Shown: in pieces, positions 61,514 through 63,752 of the stretch
Position numbering within the stretch: position 1 is the first letter of the stretch
Layout of the letters: every line of letters starts with the position of its first letter
DNA from: Gaiellales bacterium
GTDB lineage: Bacteria; Actinomycetota; Thermoleophilia; Gaiellales; JAICJC01
Reading direction: 5' to 3'
Assembly: GCA_036273515.1 (NCBI GenBank)
Contig: DASUHM010000008.1
Span: forward strand, 62,001 to 126,000
DNA length: 64,000 nt
Translations under genes and position numbers: made by a program
The notes under the pieces: model-generated
What the model was told of the DNA's origin: nothing
Database searches by the model: none
Seen by the model: the letters and a program-made list of their open reading frames with translations, nothing else

Positions 61514-63295
61514 CTACGCGGCGGACGCGCCGGGGCGCAGGCCCTCGCCGCGGGCGAGCCGCTCGCGCACGGCGGGCTCGGCCTCGCTCGTGTGCACGAA
61601 GTAGGCGTAGACCGTGCCGTTGTCGGCCACGAGGTAGGCGTGCCCGGTCGCGGTCTGCTCGTGAATCATCAGGCTCTGGTAGCGCTCGGCCAGGCGGGCG
61701 AGCGCCTCGATGCTCTCGACCTCGACCAGGTCGCCGCCGTGGATGAGCGTCGACTGGACGGCGGCGATCATCGCCTCGCCGTAGCGGGACTGGATGCGGG
61801 TGGGCTCGTCGGCGCGGCGGTCGCGGCGCAGCTGCCGTGCGGCCAGGGCGGCCGCGACCAGCGCGGCGAGCAGGCCGAGCGGCCCGAGGATGCGGGCGAA
61901 CCCGGCGGAGAGGTGGAAGACGGCCGGGCCGAGCATGACCCGGGCCGATCCCGCAGCGGCGACCGACGCGCTCTGCGACGGATGGAATACGGCCGCGCTG
62001 CCCGCATTGGCCGGCCCGGCCGCCGCGGCAGCGGCATTCAGCACCGGCGCGAGCTCGTACGACGTCAGGCTGAACGGGAGCTTCGGGGCGTAGACGGCGG
62101 CGAACGGACGGCCGGCCAGGGTGCCGTGGGTCTTGACGGACGGCACCAGCGTGAGCGTGAACTCCACGCTCGGGACCGAGGTCGCGACCGCCACCTTCTC
62201 GACGAGCCGCTGCAGGCGGCGCAGGTGGATGACGCCGGCGACGGTGGCATGGCGGCCGGTGAACGGCGTCGGGCCCTGCAGGACGACCGTCCGCGACCAG
62301 CCGTTCTGCGCCGAGACGATCGCCGCGAGCGACGCGGTGCCACCGGCGGCCTGGATCTGGGCGGACCGCAGCCGGTAGTCGAAGCGCACCTGCACCGGGC
62401 CGACGAGGCGCGAGAACACGGGCTGGCCGGTCGTGACGCGGTCGGTGTCGTAGACCGCGCCCGCAAGCGTGCTCGCCGAGTACGAGAACCGGCCGGACTG
62501 GACGTAGCTCGTCTGGGACGGGGCGGGACGGCTGGTGGGCGACGTCCAGGCGAAGATCGTGAGGCCGGCGCAGGCCAGGACGGCGGCCACCGCGGCGGCG
62601 ATGCCGCCGTACGATGGGCCCGCGGGAGCGCGGCGGACGTTGGCGGGCGGCGGCACGAGCGTCGGCGCCCTCGCCGGGGCCGGTCCCGGTGCAGCGGCCG
62701 GGGCCGCGGCCAGGGGAGGCGCGGGCGCGCCCTTCCACTTCGGCTCGTCGGCCTTCCACTTCGGCTTCGGGCGGCCGCGACGGCGCCTGCGGCGCACCTC
62801 CGCGCCGGCCCCGCCGAAGAGCAGCAGCACCGCGACGGCGGCCATGGTCCCCATGACCGGCGGCGAGTGCAGCGAGTGCAGGTCGCCGCCCAGCCCGGGG
62901 GCGAGCACCCACATCTTGCCGACGATCGCCGAGCTGGTGACGCTGCCGGGATCGATCCAGGAGTTGTTGTCGCCCTTGAACCGGTACCGGCCGCCGGGCG
63001 AGATGGAGTGGATCCGGTGCAGCACGACCACGTGCAGCTCGGGGTTGCGGTAGGCGACGATGTCGCCGACGTGATAGCTCGGGGCCGGCCGCACGAGCGC
63101 GAGATCGCCCGTGTGGATGCGGGGGTGCATGCTGATCCCGTCGGTCACCACATACGTCGTGTCTCCGCCGATGCCGGTCGGGGCAAGGAAGAACCACCCC
63201 GCCGCGAGGGCGCCCAGAACGACGACGAGCGCCGCGATCCGGCGCCTGCGGTGACTGCGTGTTCGGGGGGTGAACGTCACATCAAGGCTCCGCAC
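61514..63295 (-). CDS. SipW-type signal peptidase fused to a DUF5305-like region
   Basis: A 593-residue membrane protein. N-terminal part: TM (about 19-39), then the S26 peptidase with nucleophile Ser55 (DGISMHPRIHTGDLALV) and His93 (VVLHRIHSI) in the place where ordinary bacterial enzymes have Lys; this is the SipW/archaeal form. A TM and a Pro/Ala/Lys linker follow. The second half has a TM near 237-255 and a long beta-rich extracytoplasmic region (FSYSASTLAGAVYDTDRVTT, VQVRFDYRL) resembling DUF5305, another TM (about 468-490) and a cytoplasmic tail. Substrate: probably the product of the next gene. Confidence 0.82.
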   Translation of the reverse strand: MRSLDVTFTPRTRSHRRRRIAALVVVLGALAAGWFFLAPTGIGGDTTYVVTDGISMHPRIHTGDLALVRPAPSYHVGDIVAYRNPELHVVVLHRIHSISPGGRYRFKGDNNSWIDPGSVTSSAIVGKMWVLAPGLGGDLHSLHSPPVMGTMAAVAVLLLFGGAGAEVRRRRRRGRPKPKWKADEPKWKGAPAPPLAAAPAAAPGPAPARAPTLVPPPANVRRAPAGPSYGGIAAAVAAVLACAGLTIFAWTSPTSRPAPSQTSYVQSGRFSYSASTLAGAVYDTDRVTTGQPVFSRLVGPVQVRFDYRLRSAQIQAAGGTASLAAIVSAQNGWSRTVVLQGPTPFTGRHATVAGVIHLRRLQRLVEKVAVATSVPSVEFTLTLVPSVKTHGTLAGRPFAAVYAPKLPFSLTSYELAPVLNAAAAAAGPANAGSAAVFHPSQSASVAAAGSARVMLGPAVFHLSAGFARILGPLGLLAALVAAALAARQLRRDRRADEPTRIQSRYGEAMIAAVQSTLIHGGDLVEVESIEALARLAERYQSLMIHEQTATGHAYLVADNGTVYAYFVHTSEAEPAVRERLARGEGLRPGASAA

Positions 63296-63347
63296 GTGGG
63301 CGGCGGGAGAGGGGATCCCGCCGCCCCGTGCATCGTGCTGGGTCGGT

Positions 63348-63752
63348 CTAGCGGGCGGCCGCGACCGTCAGCGTGTCGAGCTGCGCATCCACGCCCGGCA
63401 GGACGCAGTGCACGGCGTACGGCGCGGTGTGGGAGATGGTGCTGCCCGCGCCGGTGCAGTCGATCCAGCCGCTGCTGGGCAGCGAGGCGTGCGAGTCGTC
63501 GAACTTGACCTGCACCTGCGTGGCGTTGCTGTCGAGGTCGAAGTCGACCGCCGACAGGGTGGACGGGTCGCTCGAGTCCTGGGTGTAGGCGACGTTCGTC
63601 ACCGTGTACCCGGAGATCGAGGCCTGACCGACGCCGGCGGCGCTGGTCGTGTCGACCGTGTTGCTGGTGGTGAAGGCGTAGGCGCCAAGCCCCGCAGCCG
63701 CCGCGACGACGACGATACCGAGGCCGGCCGACCGCTTCAGATTGCTGAACAT
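63348..63752 (-). CDS. Small exported protein, candidate SipW substrate (TasA-like)
   Basis: A 134-residue protein. The N-terminus (NLKRSAGLGIVVVAAAAGLGAYAFTTSNTV) is a signal with an Ala-rich core and a cleavage region like those of SipW-processed TasA or camelysin. The mature part is Ser/Thr/Asp-rich, strand-forming, with a likely disulfide (WIDCTG...AVHCVLPG). The signal peptidase gene lies 52 bp downstream. It may be a fibre or matrix subunit; this is inferred from the pairing. Confidence 0.7.
   Translation of the reverse strand: MFSNLKRSAGLGIVVVAAAAGLGAYAFTTSNTVDTTSAAGVGQASISGYTVTNVAYTQDSSDPSTLSAVDFDLDSNATQVQVKFDDSHASLPSSGWIDCTGAGSTISHTAPYAVHCVLPGVDAQLDTLTVAAAR

Follow-up and report, generated by a model that had tools for sequence, protein, structure and literature searches.

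In Bacillota, SipW-type signal peptidases serve to make matrix fibres; archaea, too, are known to have fibres related to TasA. TasA/camelysin proteins are jelly-roll subunits which polymerise by donor-strand exchange, and TapA, exported in soluble form, initiates TasA filaments. The closest described systems are tapA-sipW-tasA of Bacillus subtilis and sipW-bsaA of Clostridium perfringens; in the latter a SipW-type peptidase is needed for BsaA export, and BsaA polymerises (PMC7395162). Related peptidases also lie near proteins with SipW-dependent-type signal peptides in haloarchaeal loci (Halorubrum plasmid NZ_CP034941, locus L089). The literature searched yielded no study of actinobacterial SipW-type versions and no paper describing the fusion reported here.

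The window, the whole 64,000-nucleotide stretch of a Gaiellales bacterium contig analysed here, contains two adjacent minus-strand genes 52 bases apart, in agreement with the pair claimed in the earlier note. The upstream gene (63348-63752) encodes a 134-residue exported protein and the next one (61514-63295) a 593-residue protein. As in B. subtilis, a dedicated Ser-His peptidase adjoins an exported protein whose processing site contains an aromatic residue, and the association of a SipW-type peptidase with an exported partner is also that of C. perfringens. However, the peptidase here is fused to DUF5305 (PF17231), a family of unknown function, and there is no tapA. The C. perfringens peptidase is a separate gene product; at the haloarchaeal L089 locus, DUF5305 is unmatched in the five proteins examined. 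The fusion with DUF5305 makes the pair a further form of SipW-type export module. The features of the locus are as follows.

63348..63752, minus strand: small exported protein, 134 residues, upstream member of the pair, with no Pfam or NCBIfam model
63675..63752, minus strand: predicted signal peptide (residues 1-26) with GLGAYA at its end (helix 9-27 and conservation; putative cleavage point)
63351..63674, minus strand: mature part, residues 27-134, with FTTSNTV N-terminus, linker and beta-rich domain (conservation, AlphaFold)
63292..63331, minus strand: RNA hairpin between the genes, covering the annotated GTG 63295 (folding, conservation in the sister)
61514..63295, minus strand: signal peptidase-DUF5305 fusion, 593 residues from GTG 63295 or 588 residues from the likelier GTG 63280
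62876..63169, minus strand: extracytoplasmic peptidase domain, residues 43-140 (Pfam, NCBIfam, alignment)
63131-63133, 63017-63019 and 62969-62971, minus strand: catalytic codons of S55, H93 and D109
62606..62815, minus strand: putative cytosolic linker joining TM2 to TM3, residues 161-230, with an Arg/Lys-rich start (positive-inside rule)
61901..62548, minus strand: extracytoplasmic DUF5305 part, residues 250-465, between TM3 and TM4
61517..61843, minus strand: cytosolic C-terminal DUF5305 part, residues 485-593 (Pfam model positions 123-217 cover TM4 and this part)

Both genes are real, since a sister MAG keeps both as coding sequence (84% amino acid identity for the small protein, 73% for the fusion) and dN/dS between the window genome and the sister is about 0.42 for each gene. 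The hairpin between them folds at about -38 kcal/mol over a 63-nt stretch, with a z-score of -5.4 in the window and -3.9 in the sister genome; Rfam gave no match at the locus. The annotated GTG 63295 falls inside the 3' arm of this conserved hairpin, whereas the next in-frame GTG, 63280, is preceded by GGAG at a good distance and is therefore more likely to be the start of the fusion. Judging from sequences of the window's genus alone, the hairpin may keep levels of the peptidase lower than those of the cargo. The gene from 63962 (L002:5963-6985), to which the earlier note had also drawn attention, encodes a 340-residue exported protein with a C-terminal helix and no match in a Pfam search. 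In the sister genome it does not lie next to the pair, and it was ruled out as a member of the module.

The long protein contains a Peptidase_S24 domain at residues 43-127, above the Pfam cut-off, and scores 57.5 bits against TIGR02228 (ER/archaeal-type signal peptidase I; curated cut-off 51.85). Ser55, His93 and Asp109 are invariant in all seven aligned relatives, and a Ser-His pair is in place of Ser-Lys, as the earlier note had seen. The best matches of the peptidase among solved structures are SEC11A and SEC11C, subunits of the signal peptidase complex. With the invariant catalytic residues, these matches place the peptidase in the Ser-His, ER/archaeal class. It is not a SipW equivalog: against the NCBI model NF046067 it reaches 31.1 bits, far under the cut-off of 190, which sets it apart from B. 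subtilis SipW.

The same chain carries DUF5305 at residues 473-565 (32.4 bits against a gathering cut-off of 29), so both domains of the proposed fusion are above their cut-offs. Four membrane helices are predicted at residues 20-38, 142-160, 231-249 and 466-484. Together with Arg-rich inner segments, they suggest that the chain starts inside, crosses at TM1, exposes the peptidase outside, returns at TM2 to an Arg-rich linker inside and crosses again at TM3; the outer part of DUF5305, TM4 and an inner C-terminal domain would then follow. The window protein matches only the C-terminal half of the DUF5305 model (positions 123-217), while relatives L036 and L043 match it in full (positions 1-217), so we assign residues 250-465 to DUF5305 as well. 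The large extracytoplasmic region that the earlier note placed in the peptidase chain is thus part of this family, and it differs from soluble TapA in lying between membrane helices. AlphaFold gave an unusable model for the DUF5305 half (pLDDT 38), a profile search found no solved structure resembling it, and no paper naming the family was found in the literature searched.

The 134-residue partner has an unusual processing region, AYA|FTxxNTV: the signal peptide ends GLGAYA and FTTSNTV follows, which fits the earlier description of a small exported neighbour with a SipW-style signal. Among ten aligned sequences (near-duplicate sister left out), Ala26 is invariant, Tyr25 is found in 8/10, Phe or Tyr comes next in 10/10, and Asn31, Thr32 and Val33 are each kept in 9/10. 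The most conserved stretch comprises the processing site and about 25 mature residues; conservation runs to about residue 51 and drops beyond. Since only a handful of residues flanking the cleavage point normally matter to a signal peptidase, an N-terminus conserved over this length hints at an additional role, by analogy perhaps that of the donor strand, which it supplies in TasA and TapA (PMC10151520). AlphaFold (two sequences) gives a moderate model with six strands and a mean pLDDT of 68, in which the N-terminal first strand is set apart from the rest by an uncertain linker.

Homology of the partner to TasA is unsupported. The TasA/camelysin family PF12389 matches neither the small protein nor five relatives, whereas the TasA/camelysin-type partners of other peptidases of the same class (L048, L052) do match it. 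Pfam and profile comparison are both negative, so TasA homology was rejected and that part of the earlier description lacks support. No other Pfam or NCBIfam family matches, including the SipW-dependent signal peptide models, and a search with the AlphaFold model retrieved no solved structure at E<0.1. Comparison with the AASLG-type small cargo family was negative too.

The earlier note had made its proposal depend on the two genes being conserved together, and they are. Nine intact Actinomycetota fusions have upstream sequence that can be read, and in eight of them the next gene upstream encodes the small protein; six of these are G000 (the window's own genome), G002, G037, G077, G100 and G196, and the other two, G330 and G374, lie outside the class. 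The small genes of G330 and G374 were first found with a class-only profile, at E-values of 6e-6 and 1.5e-8. The ninth genome, G073, has four copies of the small protein elsewhere and none beside the fusion; the G321 contig starts at the fusion, so its upstream sequence is not readable. Intact fusions occur in 6/199 genomes of the class (G000, G037, G073, G077, G100, G196). The small protein (E<1e-10) occurs in 9/199, that is, in all six fusion genomes and in 3 of the 193 others (Fisher p ~1e-9, kinship not corrected). DUF5305 of this type is present in 4/198 genomes of the phylum, each time fused to the peptidase, and in about 400 sampled genomes it was seen solely as a fusion with this peptidase. 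A search for viral contigs found none, and a plasmid search for DUF5305 was also empty. One genome, G091 (L040:5800-7600), carries a decayed fusion whose peptidase part is lost and whose DUF5305 frame is broken by a frameshift; the small protein was not found there.

In a tree of 50 peptidase domains, ten of them fused, nine fused peptidases group with L041 and L042 while L119 lies just outside; support is weak, and the fused peptidases may have a single origin. L041 and L042 represent a branch that lost DUF5305 but kept the small protein. After it comes a cargo encoded on its own, which has calcium-binding repeats and an N-terminus reading LSASNTVP in L041 and GGGNSVP in L042; HemolysinCabind is above its cut-off in the L042 cargo. 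This second cargo is unrelated to the small protein and has a similar N-terminus (SFTAANVVP, LSASNTVP). In G139 and G156 it has a gene of its own, in G100 and G196 it forms part of the chain, and in the window's own genome it was not found. The triple fusions of G100 and G196, from another genus (L039:5708-7768, L038:4651-6726), join peptidase, DUF5305 and cargo in one chain. Their cargo stands at the C-terminus after a fifth helix, with a SipW-style site FTSGNLVP or FTAANVVP and a calcium-repeat match below the cut-off; the chain itself here includes a second likely substrate. From these variant arrangements, enzyme, DUF5305 and cargo therefore act as a single functional set.

Beyond the clade of the fused peptidases with L041 and L042, other partners are found, either the TasA/camelysin types or tandem small AASLG proteins. 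Tandem small exported proteins of the AASLGVTTDTLGAGG type lie near related DUF5305-less peptidases at L046, L123, L124 and L125, and the two tested have no Pfam match. At L049:5651-7684 (G029), the SipW-style site AAFFSGTTA connects a peptidase with a Laminin_G_3 domain, apparently an independent case of enzyme and likely substrate sharing one chain.

The reading that we favour, with the balance tipping modestly towards it, is a module of two genes dedicated to export and maturation, whose DUF5305 would take charge of the cleaved cargo at the membrane. The small protein would be exported as a precursor, probably via Sec, and the fused Ser-His signal peptidase would cut it at AYA|F. The same polypeptide would re-enter the membrane and present the outer domain of DUF5305 beside the active site, with the small domain of the fusion facing the cytosol. 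DUF5305 would most likely receive, retain or pass on the newly cut cargo, and cutting and surface placement would thereby occur in one place. The mature cargo would probably be a cell-surface or matrix subunit. Fibre assembly by the partner is plausible; for DUF5305 itself, an assembly or anchoring role, and with it the fibre export proposed in the earlier note, can be put forward only conditionally. The window genome also encodes a LepB-like peptidase, distinct from the fusion. In B. subtilis TasA, LepB is impeded when P2 is aromatic (PMC10269814); P2 of the small protein is Tyr and P1' is aromatic as well, which suggests cleavage by the fusion rather than by the LepB-like enzyme.

The module reading is supported by the adjacency of the pair, its co-occurrence within the class and the confinement of DUF5305 to fusions. 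It also draws on the clustering of fused peptidases with two DUF5305-less ones that keep the small protein, on the conservation of the processing site, on the similar N-terminus of the second cargo and on the separate LepB-like peptidase. Counting against it are G139 and G156, which are without DUF5305, G073 with its partner genes away from the fusion, and the combination of no TasA homology, no solved fold and the unusable DUF5305 model.

As an alternative, possible though rather unlikely, DUF5305 could be a part of the peptidase with a recognition or accessory function, much as the accessory subunits have in the eukaryotic signal peptidase complex; the cargo would then be an ordinary monomer, secreted or at the surface. 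Fusion of DUF5305 to the peptidase in every case found would fit, as would the resemblance of the peptidase to SEC11A and SEC11C, but close DUF5305-less relatives retain the same cargo type and processing motif, and accessory subunits were not matched in the profile search. Fairly improbable, in our estimate, is a one-protein machine for fibre or surface assembly, in which the peptidase would cut the subunit and DUF5305 would shield its N-terminal strand and feed it to a growing polymer. We give slightly less weight still to DUF5305 as a sensor, whose outer domain would detect the state of cargo or envelope and whose cytosolic domain would relay it. The cytosolic domain is conserved, and B. 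subtilis SipW is described as bifunctional, with a reported regulatory role (PMC13082335, citing Terra 2012); against this parallel, no regulator recurs beside the pair in the loci examined and no known signalling domain is matched in Pfam or NCBIfam. That the neighbours are functionally unrelated, with a general signal peptidase cutting the small protein and the fusion serving other clients, is very improbable: G073 would fit, but adjacency in the other eight readable loci, inside and outside the class, and the aromatic residues at P2 and P1' of the AYA|F site speak against it.

Returning to the favoured module, the fusion of a peptidase with DUF5305, conserved alongside its partner, offers a concrete way into an uncharacterised domain. 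If the assembly-machine reading were true, processing and assembly would be coupled in one polypeptide. With this fusion it becomes testable whether a single protein can couple signal-peptide removal to surface assembly.
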